Part shown: piece by piece, positions 17,276 through 46,900 of the stretch
Position numbering within the stretch: the stretch's first letter is position 1
Layout: each line of letters starts with the position of its first letter
NCBI GenBank assembly: GCA_020073265.1
Contig: JAIQFN010000015.1
Span: forward strand, 1-64,000
Origin: Terriglobia bacterium
GTDB taxonomy: Bacteria; Acidobacteriota; Terriglobia; Bryobacterales; Bryobacteraceae
Direction of reading: 5' to 3'
Length of the DNA stretch: 64,000 nt
Notes under the pieces: generated by a model
The model's input: only the letters and a program-made list of their open reading frames with translations
Database searches by the model: none
What the model was told of the DNA's origin: nothing
Made by a program: the position numbers and the translations under genes

Positions 17276-17321
17276 GCGTTCACACGAGTGTGAACGCGGC
17301 ACGCAGGAGTGCGTGCGCCAC
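17276..17321 (-). repeat. REP-like double hairpin, family 1, copy A
   Basis: A 46-base element, read on the minus strand as GTGGC then hairpin GCACGCA-CTCC-TGCGTGC, then hairpin GCGTTCACA-CTCG-TGTGAACGC. It begins six bases after the stop of the HydG-like gene and fills the gap before the small-subunit gene. Two further copies lie at 27998-28043 and 36622-36667. Confidence 0.88.
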
Positions 17322-17327
17322 GATTTC

Positions 17328-18182
17328 TTAGAGCTCATGGCGGCCTCCCATCCAGCGGCGCATCTCGGCGTAACGGAACACCGGACCGTCTTTGCACAGG
17401 AAATAGGGGCCCATCTGGCAATGGCCGCAGAAGCCGACCGCGCATTTCATATTGAGTTCCATCGAGAGGTAAATATTTTCGTCCGCCACCTTTTGGGCGT
17501 CCAGCTCGCGCATGACGAAACGCATCATGATTTCGGGGCCGCAGGTCATGGCCACGGTTTGCTGGGGCCGGAGTTTGACGAAGCGGAAGAACTTGGTGAC
17601 CACGCCGACGTGTCCGCGCCAGCTAGCGCCGCCGGTGTCAACGGTGGTGAGCACCTGTGTGTCCGGCGCGGCGCTCCAGGCTTTCAACTCCTTGGTGAAC
17701 AGCAGCTCCTTGGGGCTGCGGGCTCCGTACAGAATGGTGAAACGTCCGTAGTCGGCTCGATGCCGCAGGATGTGATAGATCACCGGACGCAGCGGCGCGA
17801 GACCGATGCCGCCGGCCACCAGCAGCACATCGCGGCCGCGGGCCGCTTCCACCGGCCAAGGGCTGCCGAATGGTCCGCGCATGCTGATGGTGTCGCCGGG
17901 GCTGCGATTCACCAGTGCGCCGCTGACCGCGCCCACGGAACGGATGGTGTAGACCAGGCGGTCCGGAACGCCCGGATCGCCGCTGACGGAGATGGGCACT
18001 TCGCCGACGCCGTAGCTGTACAGCATGCTGAACTGGCCGGGTTGGAAGGCCGGCAAGCCGCCCGAGTCAACCGGCTCAGTGACCAGGGTGCAGGTGTCGT
18101 GCGTTTCCCGAGCGACGCTAGCGATGCGCACCGCGACGGGCAGCATCGGATCGGACAGGTCGGTGTGAAGGGGAACGCTCAT
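17328..18182 (-). CDS. Hydrogenase FAD/NAD(P)-binding subunit (HydG-like)
   Basis: A 284-residue ferredoxin-reductase-type protein. The FAD-binding barrel includes [16 protein letters not shown] and PISVSGD. The NAD(P)-binding Rossmann part has [19 protein letters not shown] and [10 protein letters not shown]. The C-terminal 2Fe-2S cysteines lie in [20 protein letters not shown], as in dihydroorotate dehydrogenase electron-transfer and sulfhydrogenase gamma subunits. It would pass electrons between NAD(P)H and the iron-sulfur chain of the small subunit. NAD versus NADP preference cannot be read reliably. The start overlaps the stop of the cyclic-nucleotide-domain gene. Confidence 0.88.
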
Positions 18183-27997: not shown

Positions 27998-28043
27998 GTG
28001 GCGCACGCCCTCGTGCGTGCCGCGTCGACACTCGTGTCGACGC
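27998..28043 (+). repeat. REP-like double hairpin, family 1, copy B
   Basis: GTGGC then GCACGCC-CTCG-TGCGTGC, then GCGTCGACA-CTCG-TGTCGACGC. Relative to copies A and C the second stem has two base pairs exchanged on both arms (TC..GA to CG..CG), so pairing is kept. It lies in the 359-base gap between the divergent hydrogenase operon and the gene at 28156, which otherwise holds only the hydrogenase promoter region and a possible plus-strand TTGACA at 27922-27927. Confidence 0.88.
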
Positions 28044-33748: not shown

Positions 33749-34372
33749 GTGCAAATACGAATCCACGGTCGTGGAGGCCAAGGCGTCGTCTCAGCCGCCG
33801 AAATGCTCTCCATCGCCGCTTTCCTAGAAGGGCGTTACGCCCAGGCTTTTCCGAGCTTCGGCTCCGAGCGCATGGGAGCGCCTGTCATGGCGTTCTGCCG
33901 CATCGCCGACCGTCCCATCCGTCTACGCGAACCCGTTTCCAATCCCGACGCGCTGATCATCCAAGACCCTACCCTGCTCCAGCAAACCGCGCTGTTTGAA
34001 GGACTTCGGCCGGATGGCTTCGTTTTGATCAACTCCACCCGCAGCCTGGACGAGCTGGGCTTGGCTTCGTTTTTGAAAAATCTTCCGCCCGAGCACGCCC
34101 TCATCGTTCCCGCCACCGAGCTGGCGCTGCGCTACATCGGACGCCCGCTCCCCAATAGCACCTTGCTGGGCGGATTCGCGGCCATGACCGGCGAGCTGCG
34201 GCTTGCATCGGTGCTGGCGGCCATTCGCCAAAAATTCTCCGGCAAGATCGGTGAAGCCAACGCTCAGGCCGCCGAAGCCGCCTACCATCTGATCGCCAAG
34301 AGCATGACCAAACCGCCGCTTCAGAGATCCGCCGACGAAACCCGGGAGGCCATCCATGTGGAAGCAGATTGA
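33749..34372 (+). CDS. 2-oxoacid:ferredoxin oxidoreductase gamma subunit
   Basis: A 207-residue gamma subunit from GTG 33749. The family signature IRIHGRGGQGVVSAAEMLSI and FPSFGSERMGAPV are at the N-terminus, with the usual NDTLLGGFAA-like region (NSTLLGGFAAMTGELRLASV) later. It is the first gene of a four-gene operon and overlaps the alpha gene by 17 bases. The order gamma, alpha, beta with a separate electron-input gene resembles archaeal and clostridial pyruvate or ketoisovalerate oxidoreductases. The substrate cannot be fixed from this subunit. Confidence 0.88.
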   Translation: MQIRIHGRGGQGVVSAAEMLSIAAFLEGRYAQAFPSFGSERMGAPVMAFCRIADRPIRLREPVSNPDALIIQDPTLLQQTALFEGLRPDGFVLINSTRSLDELGLASFLKNLPPEHALIVPATELALRYIGRPLPNSTLLGGFAAMTGELRLASVLAAIRQKFSGKIGEANAQAAEAAYHLIAKSMTKPPLQRSADETREAIHVEAD

Positions 34373-35609
34373 AGGCTCGCGCGCAGTGGCGGAAACGGTG
34401 GCCATGTGCCGGCCGCAAGTCATCTGCGCTTACCCCATCACGCCGCAGACCCACATCGTCGAGGCGCTGGGCGAGATGGTGAAGTCGGGCGCGCTGGCCG
34501 GCTGCGAATTTCTGAACGTCGAGTCGGAATTCGGAGCGCTCTCGGTGGCTATTGGCGCTTCGGCCGCGGGCGCGCGCGCCTACACAGCCACCGCCAGCCA
34601 GGGACTGCTGTTCATGGCTGAAGCGGTCTACAACGCGGCCGGCCTGGGCCTGCCCATCGTGATGACCATCGGCAATCGAGCCATCGGGGCGCCCATTAAC
34701 ATCTGGAACGATCATTCCGATTCCATGTCGATGCGCGATTCCGGCTGGATCCAGCTCTATGCGGAAACCAACCAGGAGGCCGCCGACCTGCACATCCAGG
34801 CCTTCCGCCTGGCCGAAGAGCTGTCCTGCCCCGTAATGGTGTGCATGGACGGATTCATCCTCACGCACGCCTACGATCGCATCGACCTTCCGCTGCAGCA
34901 CCAGGTGGATGCCTGGCTGCCGCCCTTCGAACCGCGCCAGGTGCTGGACCCGGCCGCGCCGGTTTCCATCGGCGCCATGGTCGGCCCGGAGGCTTTCAGC
35001 GAGGTCCGCTACCTGGAGCATCACAAGCAACTGCGGGCGCTCGAGCGCATCCCCGAAATCAGCGCCGAGTTTTACGCCACGTTCGGCCGCGAATCCGGCG
35101 GCCTGCTGCGGCCTTATCGCCTGGACGGCGCCGATACGGTTGTGGTCGCGCTCGGATCGGTGAACGGAACCATCCAGGAAGCCGTGGATGAGCTGCGCGC
35201 CGAAGGCGTGGCCATCGGCTCCATCAGCATCTGCTCGTTCCGCCCGTTTCCTTTGGAAGCGGTCTCGCGCGCGCTGAGCCAGGCCAAGCGCGTGGTGGTG
35301 ATCGAGAAATCTCTGGCGGTTGGCTTGGGCGGCATGCTGGCCACCGACGTTCAGATGGCTCTCTCCACCCGGCGTCCGCGCGTCTATACCGTCATCGCGG
35401 GCCTGGGCGGGCGCGCCATCACCAAAGCGTCGTTGCTGAAACTCTTCCACCAGGCCAAGGCGGACGCGCTCGAAAGCGTGACCTTCCTGGATCTCAACTG
35501 GGACATCGTCAACCGGCAACTGAAACGCGAGCTGGCCACGCGGCGATCCGGACCGGCGGCCGAAAGCATCCTGAAGGATCTCGGGACGCTTTCATCGAAG
35601 ATCGTCTAG
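34356..35609 (+). CDS. 2-oxoacid:ferredoxin oxidoreductase alpha subunit
   Basis: A 417-residue alpha subunit (PorA/VorA type). It starts MWKQIEGSRAVAETVAMCRP and has the conserved CAYPITPQTHIVEALGEM and NVESEFGALSVAIGASAAG, then a transketolase C-terminal domain (VVVALGSVNGTIQEAVDELR, VVVIEKSLAVGLGGMLATDV). This subunit contributes to binding of the 2-oxoacid and the thiamine pyrophosphate pyrimidine. GGGAGG lies six bases before the ATG. Nine bases separate it from the beta gene. Confidence 0.92.
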   Translation: MWKQIEGSRAVAETVAMCRPQVICAYPITPQTHIVEALGEMVKSGALAGCEFLNVESEFGALSVAIGASAAGARAYTATASQGLLFMAEAVYNAAGLGLPIVMTIGNRAIGAPINIWNDHSDSMSMRDSGWIQLYAETNQEAADLHIQAFRLAEELSCPVMVCMDGFILTHAYDRIDLPLQHQVDAWLPPFEPRQVLDPAAPVSIGAMVGPEAFSEVRYLEHHKQLRALERIPEISAEFYATFGRESGGLLRPYRLDGADTVVVALGSVNGTIQEAVDELRAEGVAIGSISICSFRPFPLEAVSRALSQAKRVVVIEKSLAVGLGGMLATDVQMALSTRRPRVYTVIAGLGGRAITKASLLKLFHQAKADALESVTFLDLNWDIVNRQLKRELATRRSGPAAESILKDLGTLSSKIV

Positions 35610-35618
35610 GAGCAAACG

Positions 35619-36620
35619 ATGCCGTTTCATCAGATCAAGTTTTATCAGACCGGCACGTTCACGATCGGCAATCGCCTGCTGGAGGCGTCCGACCGCTCGG
35701 TGCAGTCGGATGTGCACCGCTCGAACGCGCTGAACAGCGGCCATCGCGCCTGTCAGGGTTGCGGTGAAGCATTGGGCGCGCGCTATGCCGTGGATGCGGC
35801 CATTCGGGCCGCGCAAGGCAACCTGGTGGCGGTGAATGCCACCGGATGCCTGGAGGTTTTTTCGACGCCTTACCCGGAAACATCCTGGCAGGTGGCCTGG
35901 ATGCACTCGCTGTTCGGCAATACCGCGGCGGTCGCGTCGGGCGTGGCTGCGGCGATGAAGGCGCAGGGGCGTCCCCAGGTCCGCGTGATCGCGCAAGGCG
36001 GCGACGGCGGAACGGCCGACATCGGCCTGGGCTGTCTCTCCGGCATGTTCGAGCGCAACGACGACGTGCTCTACATCTGCTACGACAACGAAGCTTACAT
36101 GAACACCGGCGTGCAGCGCTCCGGCACCACGCCGGCCGCCGCCCGCACCGCCACGACGCCGTCGGTCGGTCCGAAGCCCGGCAATGTTTTCGGACAAGGC
36201 AAGAGCGTCCCGCTGATCGCCATGGCGCACCAGATTCCTTATGTCGCCACGGCTTCGGTGGCCAACCTGCACGATCTCGAATACAAAGTAGAGAAGGCGG
36301 TGCCGATGCACGGCGCGCGCTACATCCATATTCATGTCCCCTGCCCGCTCGGCTGGGGTTCGGAGCCGCACGACACCATCAAGGTGGCGCGCATGGCGGT
36401 GGAGAGCGCTCTGTTCCCGCTGTTTGAAGCCGAATACGGAGAGGTCAGCGATCGCACCATCCTGCGAAAACGCCACCCGGTGGACGACTACCTGAAGCTG
36501 CAGAAGCGATTCGCGCACCTGTTCCGCCCGCAGCGCGATGAGGAACGCATCGCCGCCATCCAGGCCATCGCGGATCGCAACGTCCGCCGCTTCGGGCTGG
36601 AAAACGGAGCGGCGTCATGA
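35619..36620 (+). CDS. 2-oxoacid:ferredoxin oxidoreductase beta subunit
   Basis: A 333-residue thiamine-pyrophosphate subunit. The cluster cysteine region begins GHRACQGCGEALGARYAVDA, with the third cysteine in NATGCLEVFSTPYP. The TPP/Mg motif is GDGGTADIGLGCLS followed by YDNEAYMNTGVQRSGTTP. A late cysteine in HVPCPLGWG completes the 4Fe-4S ligands, as in PorB. Together with alpha and gamma it would interconvert a 2-oxoacid plus CoA with acyl-CoA, CO2 and reduced ferredoxin. AGGAG precedes the ATG. A REP-like element follows immediately after its stop. Confidence 0.92.
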   Translation: MPFHQIKFYQTGTFTIGNRLLEASDRSVQSDVHRSNALNSGHRACQGCGEALGARYAVDAAIRAAQGNLVAVNATGCLEVFSTPYPETSWQVAWMHSLFGNTAAVASGVAAAMKAQGRPQVRVIAQGGDGGTADIGLGCLSGMFERNDDVLYICYDNEAYMNTGVQRSGTTPAAARTATTPSVGPKPGNVFGQGKSVPLIAMAHQIPYVATASVANLHDLEYKVEKAVPMHGARYIHIHVPCPLGWGSEPHDTIKVARMAVESALFPLFEAEYGEVSDRTILRKRHPVDDYLKLQKRFAHLFRPQRDEERIAAIQAIADRNVRRFGLENGAAS

Positions 36621-36621
36621 T

Positions 36622-36667
36622 GTGGCGCACGCACTCGTGCGTGCCGCGTTCACACTCGTGTGAACGC
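36622..36667 (+). repeat. REP-like double hairpin, family 1, copy C
   Basis: GTGGC then GCACGCA-CTCG-TGCGTGC, then GCGTTCACA-CTCG-TGTGAACGC. It begins two bases after the beta-subunit stop and lies wholly within the 67-base gap before the oxidoreductase/ferredoxin fusion gene. It is identical to copy A except for one loop base. Confidence 0.9.
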
Positions 36668-36687
36668 AGTGCCGAGGTTTCGACGAA

Positions 36688-38310
36688 ATGACTAAGCCAT
36701 TCGCCATCACGCTGGACGTCGGCTCCAGCCTCGCCAACAAAACCGGGTCGTGGAGAACCGAGCGTCCGGTTTACCTGGACCGGATGCCGCCTTGCAACCA
36801 CGCCTGCCCGGCCGGCGAGAACATCCAAGCCTGGCTTTTCCACGCCGAAGGCGGCGACTACTTCGAAGCCTGGAAATCGCTGGTGGAAAATAATCCGCTG
36901 CCCGCCATCATGGGCCGCGCCTGCTATCATCCCTGCGAATCCGGGTGCAACCGCGCGCAGCTCGATCAGCCGGTGAACATCCACGCTGTGGAGCGTTTTC
37001 TAGGCGACGAAGCCATCCGCCAAGGCTGGCAGTTTGACGCCGTCGCGCCTACCGGCAAGCACGTGCTGGTGGTCGGGTCGGGACCCTCGGGCCTCTCGGC
37101 CGCGTATCATTTGTCGCGTCTCGGCCACAAGGTCACCATCTACGAGGCAGGACCCGCGCCCGGCGGCATGATGCGCTTCGGCATCCCCAAGTACCGGCTG
37201 CCGCGCGAGGTTCTGGACGCCGAGATCGCGCGCATCGCGAACATGGGCGTCGAAATACGGCTCAACACCCGTGTGGACGACCTCACCGAAGTGCTGGAGC
37301 GCAAGGAATTCGACGCGGTGTTTCTGGCGGTCGGCGCGCACCTGTCCAAACGCGCCTACATTCCCGCCGGCGACGCCAGCAAAATCCTGGACGCGCTCGG
37401 CGTGCTGCGCAGCGTGGATGGCGGACAGCCGCCCGAGCTGGGACGCCGCGTCCTGGTCTACGGCGGAGGCAACACGGCGCTGGATGTCGCGCGCACCGCC
37501 AAACGCCTGGGCGCCACCGAGACGCTCATCGTCTACCGCCGCACCCGCGAGAAGATGCCCGCGCACGATTTCGAAGTCCAGGAAGCCATGGAAGAGGGCA
37601 TCCAGTTCAAGTGGCTTTCCACCATCAAACAAGCCGGCGAGTCGACTTTCACCGTGGAGAAGATGCGCCTGGACGAGAAGGGCTTTCCGCAGCCCACCGG
37701 TGAATTTGAAACCATCGAAGCCGATTCGCTGGTGCTCGCGCTCGGCCAGGATGTGGACCTGAGTTTCCTGCAGCGCGTCCCCGGTCTCGAAATGGCCGAC
37801 GGCGTGGTGAAGGTGAACGATCGGATGATGACCGGGCACGCCGGCGTGTTCGCGGGCGGCGACATGGTTCCGGCCGAGCGCACCGTGACGGTCGCGGTGG
37901 GGCACGGCAAGAAAGCCGCGCGCAACATCGATGCCTGGCTGCGCGGCGTTTCCTACCAGCCGGCTCCCAAACACGCGCTGGCGGAGTTCAACAAGCTGAA
38001 CACCTGGTATTACTCGGACGCGCCCTTGACCGTGCAGCCCGTGCTCGACGCCGTGCGCCGCCAGACCACTTTCGACGAAGTGGTTAGCGGGCTGGACGAA
38101 AGCAACGCGCTGTTTGAAGCGCGCCGGTGTCTCTCCTGCGGCAACTGCTTCGAGTGCGACAACTGCTACGGCGTGTGCCCCGACAACGCGGTGATCAAGC
38201 TCGGGCCGGGGAACCGCTTTCGGTTCAACTACGACTATTGCAAGGGCTGCGGAATGTGCGTGGCCGAGTGCCCGTGCGGCGCGATCGAAATGGTCCCGGA
38301 AACCATTTGA
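36688..38310 (+). CDS. GltD-like NAD(P)H/FAD oxidoreductase fused to 2[4Fe-4S] ferredoxin
   Basis: A 540-residue fusion. The N-terminal domain carries glutamate-synthase-type Fe-S cysteines (CNHACPAGENIQAW, CYHPCESGCNR). FAD-binding GSGPSGLSAAYHLSRLG and NAD(P)-binding GGGNTALDVARTAKRLG follow, with the FAD end in GVFAGGDMV. The last 60 residues are a two-cluster ferredoxin (CLSCGNCFECDNCYGVCP and CKGCGMCVAECPCG) in the position of the usual PorD subunit. It would couple NAD(P)H to ferredoxin reduction within the oxidoreductase complex. It is the last gene of the operon, after a REP-like element. Confidence 0.88.
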   Translation: MTKPFAITLDVGSSLANKTGSWRTERPVYLDRMPPCNHACPAGENIQAWLFHAEGGDYFEAWKSLVENNPLPAIMGRACYHPCESGCNRAQLDQPVNIHAVERFLGDEAIRQGWQFDAVAPTGKHVLVVGSGPSGLSAAYHLSRLGHKVTIYEAGPAPGGMMRFGIPKYRLPREVLDAEIARIANMGVEIRLNTRVDDLTEVLERKEFDAVFLAVGAHLSKRAYIPAGDASKILDALGVLRSVDGGQPPELGRRVLVYGGGNTALDVARTAKRLGATETLIVYRRTREKMPAHDFEVQEAMEEGIQFKWLSTIKQAGESTFTVEKMRLDEKGFPQPTGEFETIEADSLVLALGQDVDLSFLQRVPGLEMADGVVKVNDRMMTGHAGVFAGGDMVPAERTVTVAVGHGKKAARNIDAWLRGVSYQPAPKHALAEFNKLNTWYYSDAPLTVQPVLDAVRRQTTFDEVVSGLDESNALFEARRCLSCGNCFECDNCYGVCPDNAVIKLGPGNRFRFNYDYCKGCGMCVAECPCGAIEMVPETI

Positions 38311-38395
38311 GCCGCCAGGAGGCTCGGGATGCCGACGCCGATCGACCAATTGCAGGCCGAACAATTAGGAGTGGTTGGGCGGCGATAGCAATTGG

Positions 38396-38443
38396 TTGAC
38401 AATCAGGCGTCCAACGGGTCTAATATGACTAGTCAGACTAGTC
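38396..38443 (+). promoter_or_regulatory. Promoter and tandem palindromic operator of the Phd/PIN pair
   Basis: TTGACA at 38396-38401 is followed by a TAATAT-like -10 (TCTAAT at 38419-38424 with 17-base spacing, or TAATAT at 38421-38426 with 19). Directly downstream are two perfect eight-base palindromes GACTAGTC at 38427-38434 and 38436-38443, separated by one A. They cover the likely transcription start, where a Phd-type antitoxin would bind to autoregulate. Confidence 0.65.
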
Positions 38444-38450
38444 GTAGAAG

Positions 38451-38774
38451 ATGATGTCCAAAACCAGGAAGAATCCTAGCCGCGTAGCAAAGGCCGCCAG
38501 CGCCGCGAAAACGCGCGGACCTGCCTGGCAAATCCAAACCGCCAAAGCCCGGTTCAGCGAAGTCTTCCGCCGTGCGCGAACCGAGGGGCCGCAGCGAATC
38601 ACCCGGCAGGGCAAGGAAGGCGTGGTCATGATCTCTGACGAACAATTCGACCGCCTGATGGCGAAGTCGCGCCAACCGAAAAGCATTGTCCAGTTCTTCC
38701 GGGAATCGCCGCTGGCCGGCGTCCATCTCGATTTGGAACGCGACCGCGACATCGGTCGTGACATCGAGCTGTGA
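38451..38774 (+). CDS. Phd/YefM-family antitoxin
   Basis: A 107-residue antitoxin. After a basic leader (SKTRKNPSRVAKAASAAKT) the Phd fold is clear: WQIQTAKARFSEVFRRARTE, then GPQRITRQGKEGVVMISDEQ and FDRLMAK. The C-terminal SIVQFFRESPLAGVHLDLER would neutralise the toxin. A second ATG three bases on (38454) or an internal start is possible. It overlaps the toxin GTG. The tandem palindromes just upstream are the probable operator. Confidence 0.85.
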   Translation: MMSKTRKNPSRVAKAASAAKTRGPAWQIQTAKARFSEVFRRARTEGPQRITRQGKEGVVMISDEQFDRLMAKSRQPKSIVQFFRESPLAGVHLDLERDRDIGRDIEL

Positions 38775-39196
38775 GCGGCTTCCTGCTCGATACGAATTGT
38801 ATCTCCGAGCTCATAAGGGCGAAGCCGGAACCGCGGGTGACGACCTGGATGGAAGCCGTCGACGAGAGCTCGCTCTTCCTGAGCGTCCTCACACTTGGCG
38901 AAATCCGCAAAGGCGTAGCGGGGCTCGCTCAGGGTAAACGCAGGGCACATATGGAAACGTGGCTGGAAATTGATCTGCAAGTCCGGTTTGCCGGCAGAAT
39001 ACTCGCCATTGACGCGCCGCTGGCGGATCGCTGGGGCTTGCTCGCCGCCGAGGCAAGACGAAGAGGAAAAGCTTTATCCGTCATCGACGGTTTGCTTGCC
39101 GCCACTGCGCTGCACCACAATCTGACGATCGTTTCGCGCAACGCTCGCGACTTCGCGGTTGCGCAGGTTCAGGTATTGAATCCGTGGGAAGCGTAA
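38771..39196 (+). CDS. PIN-domain toxin (VapC/FitB-like)
   Basis: A 141-residue ribonuclease toxin from GTG 38771, whose start overlaps the antitoxin stop (GTGA). The PIN acidic residues are visible: D in FLLDTNCISEL, E in LTLGEIRKG, D in LSVIDGLLAATAL, and D near the end in SRNARDFAVAQV. LNPW at the C-terminus is typical of FitB-like members. It would cleave RNA when the antitoxin is degraded. Confidence 0.9.
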   Translation: MSGFLLDTNCISELIRAKPEPRVTTWMEAVDESSLFLSVLTLGEIRKGVAGLAQGKRRAHMETWLEIDLQVRFAGRILAIDAPLADRWGLLAAEARRRGKALSVIDGLLAATALHHNLTIVSRNARDFAVAQVQVLNPWEA

Positions 39197-39210
39197 ACGG
39201 GGTAAGCCCG

Positions 39211-42200
39211 TTACTTGCCACCCGCCGTCGCCGTCGGCATCACATGATGCGGATACTTGGGACGCGAAGGCGGAGGCGGAGCCTTATCCAGCGCCTGCTT
39301 GGCCAGCTCGATGGCTTTCTCCAGCTGCGGATCATGGCCGGCCACTTCCAGATCCGGCCGCTGCTCGGTTACGAAGTCCGGATCGACGCCGTGATTCTCG
39401 ACGATCCAGCGGCTGCCGCTCTTGTCTACCGCCCAGAACGCCGACTCCGGCGCAGTGACGCCGCCGCCGTCCATGAGAGGAACGTTGCGCGAGATCCCCA
39501 CCAGGCCGCCCCAGGTCCGCACGCCCACGATGGGGCCGAGTTTTTCCTGCTGGAAATACCACGGGAACGCGTCGCCGCCCGAACCCGCCAGTTCATTCAC
39601 GATCATGACCTTGGGGCCATAGATCGCCGTGGACGGGATCGGCACGTCCTTGCCTTCGCGCCGCGACAGCAGGTTCAGCATGCGGCGCTGCAGCTTCTCG
39701 GTGAAAAACGTCGGAATGAATCCGCCGCCGTTGTAGCGCTCGTCGATGATCAGGCCTTCCTTGCCGATCTGTCCCTGAAAATATTTGTCGAACGCCTGCA
39801 GTCCCTGGATGGCCGTGTCGGGCACGTGCATGTAGGCGATGCGTCCGTTGGTGGCGTCTGAAACGATGCGCCGCCGCGATTCCACCCAATCGTAGTAGCG
39901 CAGCCCGCTCTCGTTCCCCACCGTTTTCACCGAGATCTCCCAGGCGCCCTGATCGGAGGGCTTGTCATTGATCTTCAGCGTGACCACTTTGCCGGCCAGG
40001 TTATCGAAGAACGAATAGGGATTGGCCGGAGGCCGCACCGCGATTCCGTTCACCGCGATCAGGTAGTCACCCGGCTTCACCTTGAGTCCCGGCTCGGTGA
40101 GCGGCGAGCGCGTGGATTCGTCCCAATTCTCGCCGCGATAGATTTTCGCCAGCTTGTAGTAGCCGCCGTCGACGCTGTAGTCGACGCCCAGCAGCCCGGT
40201 GCCGATTTGCCTCCGCGGCGGAACATCGCCGCCGTTGACGTAGGTGTGCGAAGTGCTCAGCTCGGCGATCATCTCTCCGATGACGTAGTTCAGATCGCTG
40301 CGGTGCGCCACCCACGGAAGCAGAGCTTCATAGCGCTGGCCGATCATCTTCCAGTCCGTGCCGGCCATATCGGGGTCCCAGTAGAAATCGCGCTCCACGC
40401 GCCAGGCTTCGTGGAAAATTTCCTTCCACTCCTCGCGCGGGTCGACGCGCACCTGCAGCGACGAGAGATCCAGCTTGCCGTCGCCGACCTTCTTGCCCGG
40501 CGCGGCGTCCACGATGCCGTAGTTGGCGGGACCGGCGCGATAGATGACTTTCTTGCCGTCCTTGTCCAGATCGTAGTTGTCGATGCCTGCCAGCACCACG
40601 TCGTCCTTGCGCTTGCTGATGTCGTACATGTGCAGCGTCGCAGGCGGCGGAGGACCAGGCCGGCCGCTCTCGGTGGTCTCGATGGAGTGCGTGAGGTAGA
40701 AGATCTTTTCCTTGCGCGCCTCGAGATTGGTGTACATCGCCGCGGGCACGGGTATCTGCACGATGCGCGCTTCGAGCGAGTCCAGGTCAACCTGGATGGG
40801 TTTCACCTCGGCCTTCTTGGCGGCCGGCTTCTCGTCGGAGGTCTTCGCTTCCTCCGCTTTCGGCTCCGCTTTGGCTGGCTCGCCGGCTTCGCTCTTGGCG
40901 TCGGGCTTCTTGGAGTCGTCGGCGTCCTTTTCGTCATCAATCTGCGGCGCGAACGGCGAAGCCTCGTCCGATTTCAACACCAGGGCGAAAATCCCCCGCG
41001 TGTCGTAGTAGTTGAACGTCATGTCCAGCGCGCCGCTGCTCGGATAGAAGAACCGGTCGGAGAAAAAGTACAGGTACTTGCCGTTCTGATCGAAGGCCGG
41101 ATTCGAGCTGTTGTAGAACTCGTCGGTGGCGCGCGTGGCCTGGCTCTTGTCGAGCGAGTACAGATAGATCGCGCTGTTGGTGTTGACCGAGTTCTTGGCG
41201 TATGCGAGCCACTTGCTGTCGGGCGACCAGGCGGGCGCTCCGGCCAAACCGTACTCGGCCTGATCCACCAGCACCGGCTGCTTCTTATCGATATCCACGT
41301 AATAGAGCCGGAACTTCTTGTCCCAATACGCCAGCTTCTGGCTATCGGGCGACCAGATGGGGCCGTAGCGATAGCACTCGCCGTCGCTGGTGATGCGCAC
41401 TTCGTCGCCGCCTTTCTGCGGCCGCGTGTACAGCTCGAACTCGCCGCTGCGGTCCGACAGATACGCCACCCACTTGCCGTCCGGCGACCAGACCGCGTTC
41501 TGTTCGTGGACGCCCGGCGTGTCGGTGAGATTGCGGATGCTGCCGTGTTCGGCGGGAATGGTGAAGATGTCGCCGCGCGCCTCCACCAGCGCGCGCACGC
41601 CGCTGGGCGAAAGCTCAAAGCTGCGGATGGACGGGGCGACGCTCTTGATCTCGGCGCGCGCGGTGGTCAGATCGCTGGCCACATTGACGGGGATGTGCGT
41701 CACCTTGCCTTTGGCGAGATCGTAGGAATACAGCAGCCCGCCATTTTCATACACGATGGCGTCCGTGCCCGCGCTCGGCCACTTGATGTCGTATTCGGTG
41801 TAGCTGGTGAGTTTCCTGGTTTGCTTGTTGCCCAAGTCCCAGCGGTACAGGTTCATGGTGCCGTCGCGATCGGAGATGAAATAGATGGCGTTGCCGCGCC
41901 ACATCGGAAACTGGTCCAGGTCGCCCGAGCGGGGCATTTCCTCATAGGTGTTGCGCTTCAGATCGTAGATGCCGATGTAGTTGTTCCAGCCGCCGCGATA
42001 GCGTTTCCAGGTGCGGAATTCCTGCGAAGTGGGATTGTAGGCGATTTTCTCGCCGTCCGGAGAAAAGCTGGTGAGGCTGGCGCGCGGCACCGGCAGCATT
42101 TCTTCCAGGCCGCCGTCGATCGGCACCAGGAACAGCTTGGTGGTGGCGGCCGGAGCGCTGGCGCGGTTGGACCGGAACAGGACCTTCTTGCTGTCCGCGG

Positions 42201-42546
42201 TCCAGCCCAGCACCATGTCGTTGGCCGGATGATAGGTCAGCCGCCGCGGCTCGCCGCCCTCCGCCGGAATCACGTAGACGTCGGCGTTGCCGTCGTACTC
42301 GCCGGTGAAGGCGATCCATTTTCCGTCCGGCGAAAACTTCGGGAACTGCTCATCGCCGGGATGCGAGGTCAAGCGTCGCGCTTCGCCGCCGGCGCGCGGC
42401 ACGGTCCACAGATCCTCGGCGTAGACGAAGACCACGGAGTCCTTGGAGATATCGGGCTGGCGCATCAGGCGAGTCTCTTCGGGCGCGGTGCGGACCAGAG
42501 CGGGCAGGAACAGGCTGAGCAGCAGAGCGGCTGAACACCACTTCAT
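39211..42546 (-). CDS. Tricorn-like S41 protease
   Basis: An 1111-residue exported protease. A signal peptide (AALLLSLFLPALVRTAP) is followed by WD/TolB propeller repeats (FPKFSPDGKWIAFTGEYDG, TSFSPDGEKIAYNPTS, WSPDGKWVAYLSDRSGEFEL). A charged Lys/Glu/Ala linker at about residues 537-590 is an insertion. Then come the C1 core domain (HEAWRVERDFYWDPDMAGTD), a PDZ domain (PGLKVKPGDYLIAVNGIAV) and the C2 catalytic domain. Catalytic candidates are the His of STSHTYVNGGD, the Ser of AGSGGDAFP and the Glu of VENHGVDPD. Tricorn degrades peptides to short products; here it probably works in the periplasm. Confidence 0.9.
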   Translation of the reverse strand: MKWCSAALLLSLFLPALVRTAPEETRLMRQPDISKDSVVFVYAEDLWTVPRAGGEARRLTSHPGDEQFPKFSPDGKWIAFTGEYDGNADVYVIPAEGGEPRRLTYHPANDMVLGWTADSKKVLFRSNRASAPAATTKLFLVPIDGGLEEMLPVPRASLTSFSPDGEKIAYNPTSQEFRTWKRYRGGWNNYIGIYDLKRNTYEEMPRSGDLDQFPMWRGNAIYFISDRDGTMNLYRWDLGNKQTRKLTSYTEYDIKWPSAGTDAIVYENGGLLYSYDLAKGKVTHIPVNVASDLTTARAEIKSVAPSIRSFELSPSGVRALVEARGDIFTIPAEHGSIRNLTDTPGVHEQNAVWSPDGKWVAYLSDRSGEFELYTRPQKGGDEVRITSDGECYRYGPIWSPDSQKLAYWDKKFRLYYVDIDKKQPVLVDQAEYGLAGAPAWSPDSKWLAYAKNSVNTNSAIYLYSLDKSQATRATDEFYNSSNPAFDQNGKYLYFFSDRFFYPSSGALDMTFNYYDTRGIFALVLKSDEASPFAPQIDDEKDADDSKKPDAKSEAGEPAKAEPKAEEAKTSDEKPAAKKAEVKPIQVDLDSLEARIVQIPVPAAMYTNLEARKEKIFYLTHSIETTESGRPGPPPPATLHMYDISKRKDDVVLAGIDNYDLDKDGKKVIYRAGPANYGIVDAAPGKKVGDGKLDLSSLQVRVDPREEWKEIFHEAWRVERDFYWDPDMAGTDWKMIGQRYEALLPWVAHRSDLNYVIGEMIAELSTSHTYVNGGDVPPRRQIGTGLLGVDYSVDGGYYKLAKIYRGENWDESTRSPLTEPGLKVKPGDYLIAVNGIAVRPPANPYSFFDNLAGKVVTLKINDKPSDQGAWEISVKTVGNESGLRYYDWVESRRRIVSDATNGRIAYMHVPDTAIQGLQAFDKYFQGQIGKEGLIIDERYNGGGFIPTFFTEKLQRRMLNLLSRREGKDVPIPSTAIYGPKVMIVNELAGSGGDAFPWYFQQEKLGPIVGVRTWGGLVGISRNVPLMDGGGVTAPESAFWAVDKSGSRWIVENHGVDPDFVTEQRPDLEVAGHDPQLEKAIELAKQALDKAPPPPSRPKYPHHVMPTATAGGK

Positions 42547-42636
42547 CGTTGGGCCTCCTTGTGACCTTCAGGAATTGGACCGATTCACTAGAAAAACGAT
42601 AGCAAGAAAGGGAATAGAATCCCCATTCTACCCAAT

Positions 42637-42676
42637 GTGGGGCAGGCAATCCTGCCTGCAGCCGCCTTTAGGCGGC
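42637..42676 (+). repeat. REP element, family 2, left copy
   Basis: GTGGG then GCAGGCA-ATCC-TGCCTGC-type hairpin, then hairpin GCCGCC-TTTA-GGCGGC. The RAYT stop codon (42668-42670, minus strand) lies inside the second hairpin. Confidence 0.88.
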
Positions 42677-43216
42677 CTCAGTCCGTGCAGCACTCGACCA
42701 AGGGAACTGCTCAGCCCCCGCGACCAGTCCAGCCCTAACGGGATTCTGCTCAATGTACTTCCGAATGCGCTCGAACTCGGCGGAGTCCCTGACCAGACGG
42801 TCATAGCTTTCGTCCTGCCAAAACGGTCCTTGGCGGTTCAGGATCAGATTCGCCTGATAGGCCGTCGATCCCTTCAACGGTCCCAGCCATTTTGTCGAAA
42901 CGACCTGCGGAGTTACTAACAAGTGGACGTGGTTCGACATGATGACGAAAGCGTGTAACTCGTAGCGGCGGAAGCGGAACTCACCTTCGTGCAAAGCTGC
43001 GATCACTAGCTGTGCAATCTCGGGTTGCCGTAGCCAGATCGGACCACTGCGGGCTGTGTCCAAGAGCCGATCCATAGCTACGAACGCACGGCCACCCTTG
43101 AGCGTCGCTGGGGGAAAGACTCGGTTCGCGGGAAGGCTGTCGTGCAGACGAAAGGTCACGAACAGGGGGTGTCCAACTACGTCCCAGTGGGGGAGACGTC
43201 GTTCGTAGTGTCTCAT
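42668..43216 (-). CDS. REP-associated tyrosine transposase (RAYT)
   Basis: A 182-residue IS200/IS605-related Y1 transposase from ATG 43216 (MRHYERRLPHWDVVGHPLFV). The frame to 43330 only reads through the flanking REP. The HUH-type metal motif is in AFVIMSNHVHLLVTP, and the catalytic tyrosine in IRKYIEQNPVRAGLV. FRLHDSLP and FWQDESYDRLVRD are typical RAYT positions. Such enzymes bind single-stranded REP hairpins through a 5' tetranucleotide and are single-copy housekeepers of REP families rather than ordinary insertion sequences. Confidence 0.88.
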   Translation of the reverse strand: MRHYERRLPHWDVVGHPLFVTFRLHDSLPANRVFPPATLKGGRAFVAMDRLLDTARSGPIWLRQPEIAQLVIAALHEGEFRFRRYELHAFVIMSNHVHLLVTPQVVSTKWLGPLKGSTAYQANLILNRQGPFWQDESYDRLVRDSAEFERIRKYIEQNPVRAGLVAGAEQFPWSSAARTEAA

Positions 43217-43252
43217 CACAATGAAGTGAGGTGGGATTTGGGAAAGTCTCGG

Positions 43253-43292
43253 GCCGCCTGAAGGCGGCTGCAGGCAGGATTGCCTGCCCCAC
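43253..43292 (-). repeat. REP element, family 2, right copy (inverted)
   Basis: Inverted copy of 42637-42676 with one difference in the loop of the second hairpin (TTCA for TTTA). On the minus strand it begins GTGGGGCAGGCA and precedes the RAYT start by 36 bases. Confidence 0.88.
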
Positions 43293-43329
43293 ATTGGCTG
43301 ACTTGAACAGATAGTAGGAGGCAAATTCA

Positions 43330-43640
43330 CTACTGGTAGCGGGTCAATCGAATTGGAGGATCTAGTCCTACTCGGCCCGGCGCGATCTGCGCCAGGTAGT
43401 AGTTTTCGCCGCGTCCGGTGTGCGTGAGGGCGTCGGCGAGAGCGCTCTGAAAGAGCTTGGCGATGTCACCATGCACGAAGAAACGCGCCACTTCTGCTGG
43501 CCGGCGGCCATGGTCAAGGCCCAGTCCATCAGGTCGCCCATGTGCGCCAGAATCTGGACGGGAGTCCGGCTCTGCTCGGAGGCGCGAAATCCGGCGAATT
43601 CCTCTGGCGCGCTGGGTCCGCAAGGGGCGTTTGGGCCGGG
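43330..43640 (-). pseudogene. DinB-family protein relic
   Basis: On the minus strand one frame reads EEFAGFRASEQSRTPVQILA, then HMGDLMDWALTMA, the start of a DinB-like helical bundle. Another frame continues ARFFVHGDIAKLFQSALADA, LTHTG and RGENYYLAQIAPGRVG to a stop at 43330, matching the DinB C-terminal half with a short deletion where a QIALLRR-like stretch belongs. At least one frameshift and one deletion separate the halves and no start is left. The remaining bases 43641-43905 show nothing I recognise beyond the ribosome site of the next gene. Confidence 0.6.
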
Positions 43641-43905
43641 ACAGACATTACCTTCCCAGAATACGACAACGGTCCGATCCAGGCTGGATTCGCGATCAGC
43701 GCGGCCTCACCCACCCATTTAGTCCGCCAAATTACGCGGCTAGTGGAATCCGAAGCAGCGGTCCCGGCCGCATCACCCGAAGAAGCAAGGCGTTGGACGC
43801 CAAGCCCCAACGGTTAAGGAGTTGCTGATTAAGGTTAGCAGGACGGGTCCCTCAAAGGGTCAGGACTAATCCCCCTTCATAACTGATCCGCGTAAGGAGC
43901 ACGCG

Positions 43906-46900
43906 ATGAAACTCCATCAAGTAGCAGGGGTCTTGGCTTGTCTCGGGTTAGCTGCGCAAGTGGCATCGGCCGTTACATTGGATGCCGCTTATACCACCAC
44001 CGCTCAGTCGGACATGAGCTGTAATCCAGGGCCGCGGTCGACGAATTTTCTTACCACCGATGCTACGGTTTGGCTCTACGTGGCAGCCTCGAATGCAGGC
44101 GCGGGCGACGTATTGACAGTGGACTGGCTGATGCCCAGTGGACAGGTCTACTATAAGACTACCTTCGAAGGTCTTCCTGAGGCAGGAAACTACTGTTTCG
44201 ACGACTACCTGGACGTGGCCGGCCAACCGGCGGCCCAGTCGCCTGGAACCTGGACCATCCGCGGCCACTGGAACGGTGGGGATTTCTTCACCGTGACCTT
44301 CACCCTCAGCGCGGCTGGCGGCACGACCTCGGGAACCGCCACGGTTCAGTCCACCGCCGACATCTTTCTTTCGGGCCACAGCGGGACGATCGGCATTTCG
44401 AGTCCGGGCACCGCGCCGCCGATGGTCGCTGTTTCGGGATCGGCCGGCAAGGTGTTCCGCTTTAGCGGCGCTACCGGCACCTGGAATTGCCAGGGCGGAG
44501 GGGCGACCAGCGGTCCGGATGGCGACAATTGCTACAGCAGTACGAACATCGCGTCCTATCGCGGCATTTCCGGGATCATCCACACCAGCAAAACCATGTT
44601 CCTGGTGGGCGTCTTTCTGAGCGACGCCGAGCCGGCCGATCCAGCGCCGGCACGCTTGGATGTCTCGACCGCAAACACCGCCACCAGCATCCAGCCGCTG
44701 CTCGCGCAGACTTTCTTCATCGGAGACGGGTTGACGAGCGGGGGAGCGACGCAGGAGTTCACCATTCCGGCCGGCGCTACACGCTTGTTCCTGGGCATCG
44801 CAGACGCGGGGGGTTTTCAGGGCGGGCCGTGCTGCTACGAAGACAACTCAGGATCAGTGAAGATCAGCTGGCAGATCGGCGCATCCAGCGGTGGAGGCGG
44901 GGGTGGCGGTGGCGGAGGGAACTGCTCTTACTACGTTAATCCGTTGACCAACTCGATACCGGCGGCGGGCGGAACGGGTCTGGTGTTGATCACCACCGCG
45001 CCTACTTGTGCCTGGACGGCCAAGAGCAACGTTTCGTGGATCACCATCACCGCGGGAAGCTCCGGGACCGGAGGCGGAGCGGTCAGCTACACGGTGGCGG
45101 CCAACACCTCCAGCAGTTCGCGCACCGGAACGCTGACCATCGCCGATCAGACGCACACGGTAACGCAGGCGGCTGCGGCGGCCTGCACGTACGCGCTCAA
45201 CGCCAGCGGCAACAGCTTCGCCGCCGCCGGTGGCAGCGCCGGAGTGCTGGTAACCGCGTCGGCCGGATGCTTCTGGACCGCGGCCAGCAACAACTCCTGG
45301 ATCACCATCACGTCGGCGCCCAGCGGCACCGGCGGCGGAACGGTCAGCTACACGGTGGCCGCGAATACATCCACCAGCCAGCGGACCGGCACGATGACCA
45401 TCGCCGGACTGACCTTCACCGTCACGCAAGCCGGAGCCGCCGCTGCGAACACACCCACCATCACCAATGGAGGCATTATCAACGCCGCCAGCTACATGCC
45501 CGCCAGCATGGACGCCGGCGCGCTGGCCCGCGGATCGTTCTTCACCATCTTCGGAACCAACCTGGGTCCGGCGCAATATCAATCCCAAACCACCTATCCG
45601 CTGAACACCACGCTGGGTGAGGTGACGGTGAAGATCACCGCTGGAAGCACATCGGTGAATGCCTACATGGTGTACGCGTCCGCGAACCAGATCAACGCCA
45701 TCCTGCCTTCCAACGCCCCCACGGGGAACGTACAGATCGTGGTGACGTACCACGGCGTCGCCAGCCCCGCGTCGCCGGCCAAAGTGGTGGATACCAACTT
45801 CGGCATCTTCAGTACGTCGAATGGGCGTGGGCCGGGAGTCATCCAGAACTATGTTTCACCCACCGTCCTGCCTCTGAACACGCGCACCGCCACAGCCAAG
45901 CCCGGCCAGGTGGCGGTTCTGCTAGGCACCGGTCTTGGCCCCATCACCGCGCCCGACAACCTGGCGCCGCCCACCGGCGACTTGCCGGTCCCGGTTCAGA
46001 TATTAGTGGCCGGCAAAGTTGCCAGTAAGTCATACAGCGGGCGCATGCCCGGGGTGGCCGGCGTCGACCAGATCAACTTCACGGTGCCCGCGGATGCTCC
46101 CTCGGGATGTTATGTTCCGGTGCAGATCAAAGCCGGCAACGTCTACAGCAACATCGTCACCATGGCGATCCAGCCGGAAGGACAGACCTGCTCGGATCCG
46201 CAGAATCCGTTTTCCGACCTGGTTTCCAATGGCCGCAAGGGCGGGTCGATTTTCCTGGTGCGCGCCAATGCACACGCTCAACTCGATGCCAGCCAGCCGG
46301 CCACGGATTTGTCCATAGACTTCGGCGTGGCGGCTTTCGAAGACAACACTGGCCACGGCGATCTGGGCTACAATCCGCTGTTCTCTCTACCCCCGGTGGG
46401 AACCTGCTCGGCCTATGCAGGGAATCTGGATCTGAGCAGCTTGCTGTCCGGGAGTCCGGATCTTTCGGGCGCCGCCGGACTGCTGGGCAAGGACCTGGAC
46501 GCCGGCTCGGCCATATCCATCACGGGACCGAAGGGCAACACCATCGCGATGAACCATATGGATACCGACAAGAACACCGGCCCCTATCTGGCTCTGCTGG
46601 GAGGATCGATTCCGCTCCCCGGAGTACAGAGCCTGCCGCCCTTCCTGGATCCCGGCACATTCAAGATCAGCGGCCCCGGAGGTAAAGACGTCGGTCCGTT
46701 CCAGACGACGTTTAGCATGGGAGCGCCGGTCACCTGGACCAATCGCGATCAGATGGCGCAAATCGATCGCACGCAGGACCTCACCTTCAAATGGTCCGGC
46801 GGCGACAGCTCCAAGCTGGTGATGCTGGCGGGGCTCGGCGCCGATCAGAACACGCAAGCGCTGGCCGGTTTCTTCTGCTTCGTTCCGTCCACTCCAGGCA

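Follow-up and report, generated by a model that had tools for sequence, protein, structure and literature searches.

Comparative sequence analysis of twin-hairpin REP elements associated with a group of RAYT transposases in a family of Acidobacteriota

In this study, we report that a REP-associated tyrosine transposase (RAYT) gene of a Terriglobia bacterium is flanked by REPs composed of one foot followed by two adjacent hairpins, and that such twin-hairpin REPs are shown, at the level of sequence, to go with essentially one RAYT group of this Acidobacteriota family. Within the twin group, the same comparisons indicate that the loop tips follow the RAYT tree and that the stems vary with compensating changes. 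A second repeat population of the genome, termed family 1, is shown by the comparison with relatives to be, in all likelihood, the REP of a sister RAYT subclade which was found in those relatives and not in this assembly. The whole is best read, with a probability that we put at roughly 0.75, as a RAYT-REP system (REPtron), that is, an HUH/Y1 single-stranded DNA transposase with its own flanking REPs and a dispersed REP population, with family 1 coming from a sister RAYT. The group bears on how a RAYT distinguishes its cognate REPs from foreign ones and on how new REP families come about: dozens of RAYT/REP pairs occur in it naturally, built on one plan, their stems variable and their tips in step with the RAYT tree, so that a specificity code may be readable from sequence.

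The stretch of DNA analysed (64,000 nucleotides, hereafter the window) sits on contig C86 of a 6.4 Mb genome assembled into 131 contigs and 98.18% complete. Three Y1_Tnp genes were found in this genome, one of them a RAYT of the window type, present as a single copy. The gene is located at 42668..43216 on the minus strand and encodes 182 aa (ATG at 43214-43216, TAA at 42668-42670); this start was chosen, the longest open frame starting upstream at 43330 and running through the REP. Its NHVH (HUH) motif and its YIEQNP motif, which carries the catalytic Tyr, are intact, and NHVH 96-99 and Y155 (P0001 numbering) were invariant in an alignment of 12 RAYTs. The closest named relatives of the protein are from Bryobacterales, Bryobacteraceae and Solibacter MAGs (Acidobacteriota). 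The Pfam model Y1_Tnp scored 29.4 bits, above its cut-off of 23, and the NCBIfam model REP_Tyr_transpos (NF047646) gave an E value of 2.8e-19 and 69.5 bits, which misses the curated cut-off of 80; because the other features of RAYT/TnpAREP are present, the low score is taken as divergence of a RAYT/TnpAREP member. Identity as an IS200/IS605 transposon was rejected (NF033573, 21.4 bits, cut-off 55). Searching solved structures with the single RAYT sequence gave no match, and the first match of a profile of the 12 RAYTs was E. coli TnpAREP (4er8, E 5.6e-11). A structure model built from 28 sequences reached a mean pLDDT of 88.9, with 4er8 as the best fold match (E 6.1e-9); the single-sequence model (pLDDT 41.9) was of no use. 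The HUH motif, the single catalytic Tyr and the Y1_Tnp fold together identify the window protein as a RAYT/TnpAREP. By our own assignment from Table 1 of PMC6006769, its signature is nearest to subclass 2.7 or 2.4, a tentative placement.

The earlier note had described a RAYT unit flanked by REPs at 42637-43292, and its coordinates were right: the gene lies between inverted arms of 46 nt (42632-42677 and 43252-43297) which are 98% complementary. The REP at the 3' end of the gene (42637..42677, plus strand) consists of a GTGG foot at 42637-42640, hairpin 1 at 42642-42659 and hairpin 2 at 42661-42676, and that at the 5' end (43252..43292, minus strand) of a GTGG foot at 43289-43292, hairpin 1 at 43270-43287 and hairpin 2 at 43253-43268. 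Three family 1 REPs were located in the window, all of them single, without an inverted partner. These are a twin-hairpin unit with two CTCG loops at 36622..36667 (plus strand), starting 1 nt past the stop of the ORF 35619-36620; a twin-hairpin unit with loops CTCC and CTCG at 17276..17321 (minus strand), starting 6 nt past the stop of the minus-strand ORF 17328-18182; and a copy at 27998..28043 (plus strand) whose hairpin 1 carries a single mismatch and whose hairpin 2 is an alternative one with complete pairing (GCGTCGACA CTCG TGTCGACGC). The sequence GTGGGGCAGGCA occurs at 42637 (+) and 43292 (-), and GTGGCGCACGCA at 36622 (+) and 17321 (-). That both families begin with GTGG and share a consensus was borne out by the joint pattern GTGGNGCASGCA, which has 4 matches in the window as against a mean of 0.11 after shuffling, none of 100 shuffles reaching 4.

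Folding as single-stranded DNA gave the same form for four of the five window units, namely GTGG, 1 nt, a hairpin with 7 bp and a 4-nt loop, 1 nt and hairpin 2, whose predicted stem has 6 bp in the REP of the window RAYT and 9 bp in family 1. The lowest-energy form of the copy at 27998 shifts hairpin 1 into the foot, and the centroid fold of the copy at 36622 has a shorter hairpin 1; the folding z-scores of the window units ranged from -3.3 to -4.3. A canonical single-hairpin REP was ruled out by the two hairpins present in all five units; the earlier note had recognised the first hairpin, its description of the repeat covering the first half only. An RNA-family scan of the whole window returned tRNA only. 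When positions 34000-45500 of the window were searched against six relatives, the 46-nt unit at 36622 was the sole extent of many matches, which stop within a few bases of the unit edges. Among 30 copies from the own genome, the base at -1 of the family 1 unit is a pyrimidine in 28, and after the unit G predominates at +3 (19 copies, as against 8 with T) and at +4 (22 copies), the bases farther out showing hardly any pattern; the unit may therefore be about 51 nt long with sharp ends.

Both REP families are real genomic repeats. Across the whole genome, the joint consensus with at most one mismatch has 176 matches (reversed-pattern control, 0), and family 1 is present in 112 exact copies. For the window REP, 17 copies have the exact GCAGGCA form and 133 match the tip pattern, searched with the stem open and the tip fixed (reversed control, 0); the window stem is thus only one variant among several. 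The family 1 tip pattern searched likewise gave 115 copies, with 1 in the reversed control. Among 150 genomes of the family, exact family 1 is found in 31 and the exact window form in 26. Stem variation was followed in the genome G067, where the 100 copies listed of 113 matches are dominated by the stems AGC/GCT (57), AGG/CCT (18) and GGG/CCC (12); 91 of these 100 are fully paired, as compared with 48 on shuffling (largest value 61), and 96 carry the tip CAATC[C/T]TG, part of which was fixed by the search pattern. In hairpin 2 of family 1, 124 of 135 inner pairs are kept, against 98.6 after shuffling (largest 113). Inverted REP pairs of 112-118 bp are present at C10, C62, C63 and C76 among the places listed (for example, 19999+/20088- on C10 of the window genome, G000), and many of the copies listed here stand alone as one twin-hairpin unit.

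The distribution of the twin plan was analysed over 129 loci with a RAYT match, which an automatic rule divided into 34 with twin REPs on both sides, 6 mixed, 19 single and 70 without a pair. In a tree of 118 RAYTs from this one Acidobacteriota family, 90 rows were labelled (65 twin and 25 single), 33 of the labels having been set by hand in addition to two corrections (L073 and L169). Over the 90 labelled rows, twin versus single REP needs 2 changes, and all 65 twin rows fall in one group of 85 rows, together with 2 single and 18 unlabelled rows, with a support of 91 and no star. The inner branches of the tree are often weak (55 of 115 open, 13 starred). Since 5 of the 30 GTRG hairpins taken as background are also followed by a second hairpin, a single twin call is no proof, and it is the repeated pairs that carry the plan. 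Among named Acidobacteriota loci, 9 were found on reading to have twin REPs, several being RAYTs already among the 150 genomes; one locus, in a Solibacter MAG (L254), has ATCTCCAGAT-like tips in both hairpins, which is another tip type. Outside Acidobacteriota, four automatic twin calls (L286, L288, L309, L322) and L294 looked accidental on reading and were rejected. At a locus of a Verrucomicrobia MAG (L301), the RAYT REP on either side has a second hairpin set off by a longer spacer of about 6 nt, which may be a less strict version of the twin plan in another phylum.

The tips of hairpin 1, sorted into six classes by patterns drawn up after the REPs had been seen, need 10 changes over 38 rows of the tree, where the least possible number is 5 and shuffled classes need 24.5 on average (least of 500 shuffles, 20). 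Within the window subclade, 7 of 9 scored first hairpins carry the AATC tip, L065 and L071 being different. The two hairpins of a REP also resemble each other: over 39 REPs, one per locus and with L097 left out, their central 10 nt score 6.45 on average, compared with 4.82 with hairpins 2 permuted (5000 permutations, maximum 5.76). With six subclades as the units, delimited by hand on the tree, the true hairpin 1/hairpin 2 pairing ranks first among all 720 permutations. Like tips are carried by four of the six subclades; the window subclade, the weakest case, hardly shows them (5.22 with its own tips versus 4.54 with those of other subclades), and the GGCCTC subclade showed no matched tips (4.50 own versus 4.98).

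The origin of family 1 was traced in relatives, where RAYTs stand between inverted family 1 REPs at L118 (G092), L145 (G065), L164 (G030) and L111 (G121, of the same genus as the window genome), one of the two REPs at L111 being mismatched; L163 has a family 1 REP on one side of the RAYT, and L119 is a damaged copy. These RAYTs are 51-53% identical to the window RAYT and fall in one subclade of the tree, which upholds the proposal that the two REP families come from related RAYTs. A search of the 150 genomes with the L111 protein found no family 1-type RAYT in this assembly, where the best match, at 53%, is with the window RAYT. Exact family 1 copies are present in 13 of 17 tree-defined carriers of the sister subclade versus 18 of 133 other genomes (Fisher 1.6e-7, kinship ignored), and in 15 of 19 versus 16 of 131 (4.5e-9, kinship ignored) when the broken or split genes of G091 and G020 are added; they are absent from four of the 17 (G045, G058, G096 and G139). 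A hand-picked list of 16 carriers, giving 15 of 16, had an inconsistent cut and was replaced by the tree-defined count. For the 12 genomes carrying the window type, likewise defined by the tree, the exact window form occurs in 7 versus 19 of 138 others (0.001) and family 1 in 5 versus 26 of 138 (Fisher 0.13). The earlier note expected family 1 copies in genomes with this type of RAYT; if the window type is meant, 7 of these 12 genomes do not conform, being without exact family 1 copies. All carrier sets were compiled by eye from the search results, matches outside the tree were not counted as carriers and kinship was ignored.

Two genomes hold family 1 where the RAYT is broken or was not found. 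G091 contains 174 exact copies and a family 1-type RAYT in two pieces (contig C40, 32756-33163), which are without query residues 67-102, the part holding the HUH motif. The genome G034, of the same genus as the window genome, has 19 exact copies and gave no match to either RAYT query. Exact copies make up 112 of the 175 family 1 copies with at most two mismatches in the window genome, 127 of 203 in G036 and 111 of 297 in G121, so that no clear difference in decay was seen between orphan copies and those of genomes with the RAYT. A long-lost RAYT would not predict this, which counts against our preferred reading. No clean empty site was found in relatives: G034 retains the peptidase gene beside the RAYT and not the next gene, and in G121 and G140 the gene that follows the copy at 36622 is retained but has no family 1 REP before it, the other flank in each case not being syntenic.

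As had been noticed earlier, the RAYT stop lies inside a REP, the TAA (complement of 42668-42670) being located in the TTTA loop of hairpin 2 (42661-42676). This holds more widely, since at 37 of 40 loci with at least one twin REP the stop is inside or beyond the 3' REP (REP wholly translated at 21 loci, holding the stop at 16 and beyond the stop at 3; the set includes L169, later called single). The corresponding numbers at 19 single-REP loci are 10, 3 and 6. At L111, L118, L145 and L110, the C-terminal tail of the RAYT (e.g. ...AARTSACAT) is translated from the downstream REP. REPs near or overlapping the ends of RAYT genes were already known (PMC2817692; PMC3733652). Family 1 units start at most 12 nt after the stop of a long ORF on the same strand in 20 of 28 copies and in 15 of 30 fresh ones, as against 3.5-3.8% at random (own-genome loci L004-L033 and L326-L362; the window cases are 36622 and 17321). 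The other end, on the other strand, is near a stop in 6 of 28 and 7 of 30 copies, and a paired test gave 0.36 in the fresh set; the position behind stop codons is therefore replicated, the strand bias not being significant in the fresh copies.

In the mechanism that we propose, the RAYT would recognise the folded single strand by its GTRG foot and its loop tips, the stem serving as shape only, would cut beside the foot and would copy or move REPs and REP pairs. Both hairpins may be engaged, binding of both being the least certain step. Family 1 would derive from a RAYT of the sister subclade, its copies either having been left behind in this genome or having come in from elsewhere, and is here apparently without its enzyme. 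According to PMC8266576, other RAYTs recognise single strands, and the foot acts in cleavage and in the choice of the cleavage site; a Marinomonas RAYT cleaved at CA or CC when the foot was changed to GTGG. The same source reports loop recognition as experimentally shown for the Stenotrophomonas and Marinomonas RAYTs (group 3) and describes the role of the loop in E. coli as only non-specific, which counts against reading of the loop tips by the RAYT. A bolder version, which we put forward tentatively and would not ourselves expect to hold, is that the substrate is the twin hairpin as such: two RAYT subunits, or one dimer, would each read the same tip in a tandem pair of hairpins behind a GTRG foot, and the tips would form a lock-and-key code that changes in both hairpins at once as the RAYT diverges and that would keep the families of one genome separate, foot and stem playing no part in this.

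The earlier note gave GTGG as the recognition foot, unlike the GTAG of E. coli, and treated the common GCAsGCA backbone as a sign of direct kinship; neither point was supported. The 70 scored twin ends carry GTGG (49), GTAG (13), GGAG (4) or GGGG (4), and in G095, 15 of the 20 one-mismatch family 1-type repeats listed have GTAG for GTGG with the hairpin unchanged. The published definition of the REP already contains a GT[A/G]G foot, many Pseudomonas REPs having GTGG (PMC3686654, PMC2817692), and RAYTs specific for their REPs were also known (PMC3686654). If the families had descended from one another by matched C/G swaps, the backbone would be a trace of this, and family 1 and the window REP do agree at 18 of 23 positions, a value reached by 2.9% of 554 between-subclade pairs. 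However, the REPs of the window RAYT's sisters, eight of which were scored, reach only 13-16 of 23 when set against family 1, and in G067 three kinds of stem coexist with one tip, so the window stem is one drifting variant of several; we regard such descent as very improbable. The likeness of the families would instead be that of a foot and an opening GC common to the whole group, together with drifting stems that are alike by chance. The group also corrects the view that REP families can be recognised as kin by their foot or stem. The same agreement of the first hairpins could mean that the window RAYT serves both families, a GTGG foot and a similar stem being sufficient for family 1 to be mobilised in trans; the window RAYT is, after all, the only one of its type found here, and yet there are 112 well-kept exact copies of family 1. 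Against this, the tips differ (AATCC versus ACTCG) and follow the RAYT tree, family 1 goes with the other RAYT type and not clearly with the window type, and G034 has its copies without a match to either query, which leaves service in trans unlikely, if less so than descent by swaps.

An assembly in 131 contigs, with REPs at some contig ends (C19, C26, C89), could hide a family 1-type RAYT in a gap, and family 1 would then be no orphan in this genome. The decayed gene of G091 and the lack of a match in G034 show the enzyme to be broken or not found elsewhere as well, and we consider a hidden gene possible, though less probable than its absence. Somewhat more doubtful is the reading in which hairpin 2 is not read by the RAYT at all and is either part of an RNA (a terminator, a 3' mRNA stabiliser or a translation brake) or a by-product of tandem duplication. 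The position of family 1 behind stop codons fits a role in RNA, as does the report that E. coli REPs near stop codons stall ribosomes (PMC12306157), and duplication followed by slow divergence would explain part of the likeness of the tips. A plain RNA role, however, predicts none of the like tips in both hairpins, which differ between RAYT subclades, of the hairpin 2 stems that co-vary while the tip stays, or of a twin plan that follows RAYT phylogeny. We retain the REPtron, with family 1 derived from a sister RAYT, as the preferred reading.

Other Y1 genes were also inspected. A second Y1 transposase of the window genome, of the TIRYT kind, is located on C70 (L002, 1384-2169) and has inverted ends GGGGACAGACGGAACGTTTCC; with its GGGGACAG ends, this separate gene fits TIRYT / subclass 2.1. 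For the window RAYT the same assignment was rejected, its repeat reading GTGGGGCAGG, without the GGGGWSAS motif. A link of family 1 to the other Y1 genes of this genome was likewise rejected, that on C79 being IS200-like and that on C70 a TIRYT; neither family 1 repeats nor repeats with the window tip turned up when 3.3 kb at each of these loci was scanned. Genomes with family 1 also encode Y1 proteins of about 170-190 aa with NHVH/THVH and RHGSTR[WY]LW (L098, L099, L116 and others), which by our own comparison with PMC6006769 resemble 'class 3' TnpAY1; no family 1 match was found at such genes (L098, L099, L104, L106, L116).

The literature searched, which leaves subscription papers mostly outside and was in part accessible only as excerpts, contains no account of a twin-hairpin REP common to a RAYT clade with matched tips; as far as searched, the association of twin REPs with essentially one RAYT group, and the like tips in four of six subclades, appear to be new. 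The system is nearest to the RAYT/TnpAREP REPtrons of Pseudomonas, Stenotrophomonas and E. coli (PMC2817692, PMC3686654; TnpAY1 class 2, PMC6006769), with which it has in common the HUH motif with a single Tyr, the NHVH / WQ / YIxQNP signature and 4er8 fold, one gene between inverted REPs with a GTGG or GTAG foot, and high-copy REPs of which some form pairs. It differs in that each REP comprises a pair of neighbouring hairpins, whose tips are often alike, and in that the protein is divergent. REPINs (PMC3116915) resemble the part of the copies that form inverted pairs and differ from the many listed copies that are single twin-hairpin units. 'Double foot' REPs of subclass 2.4 (PMC6006769) are similar in being long and in being translated within the RAYT frame; there, the term denotes a repeat bounded by GTRG on one side and by its complement on the other, whereas here one foot is followed by two hairpins. 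Palindromes in double form beside RAYT-like genes have been on record since 2013, with one TIRYT group from Acidobacteria (PMC3733652), and the double inverted repeats of P. putida 607 and P. fluorescens 4255 and the 'double palindromic TIRs' of TIRYTs share with the present repeats the adjacent palindromes at the ends of a RAYT-like gene. Those repeats are described as TIRs or as degenerate REPs joined to unrelated stem-loops, whereas the present plan is common to an entire RAYT group, keeps its GTRG foot intact and often has tips that match, and the window REP, in contrast to the TIRs, is without the GGGGWSAS motif.
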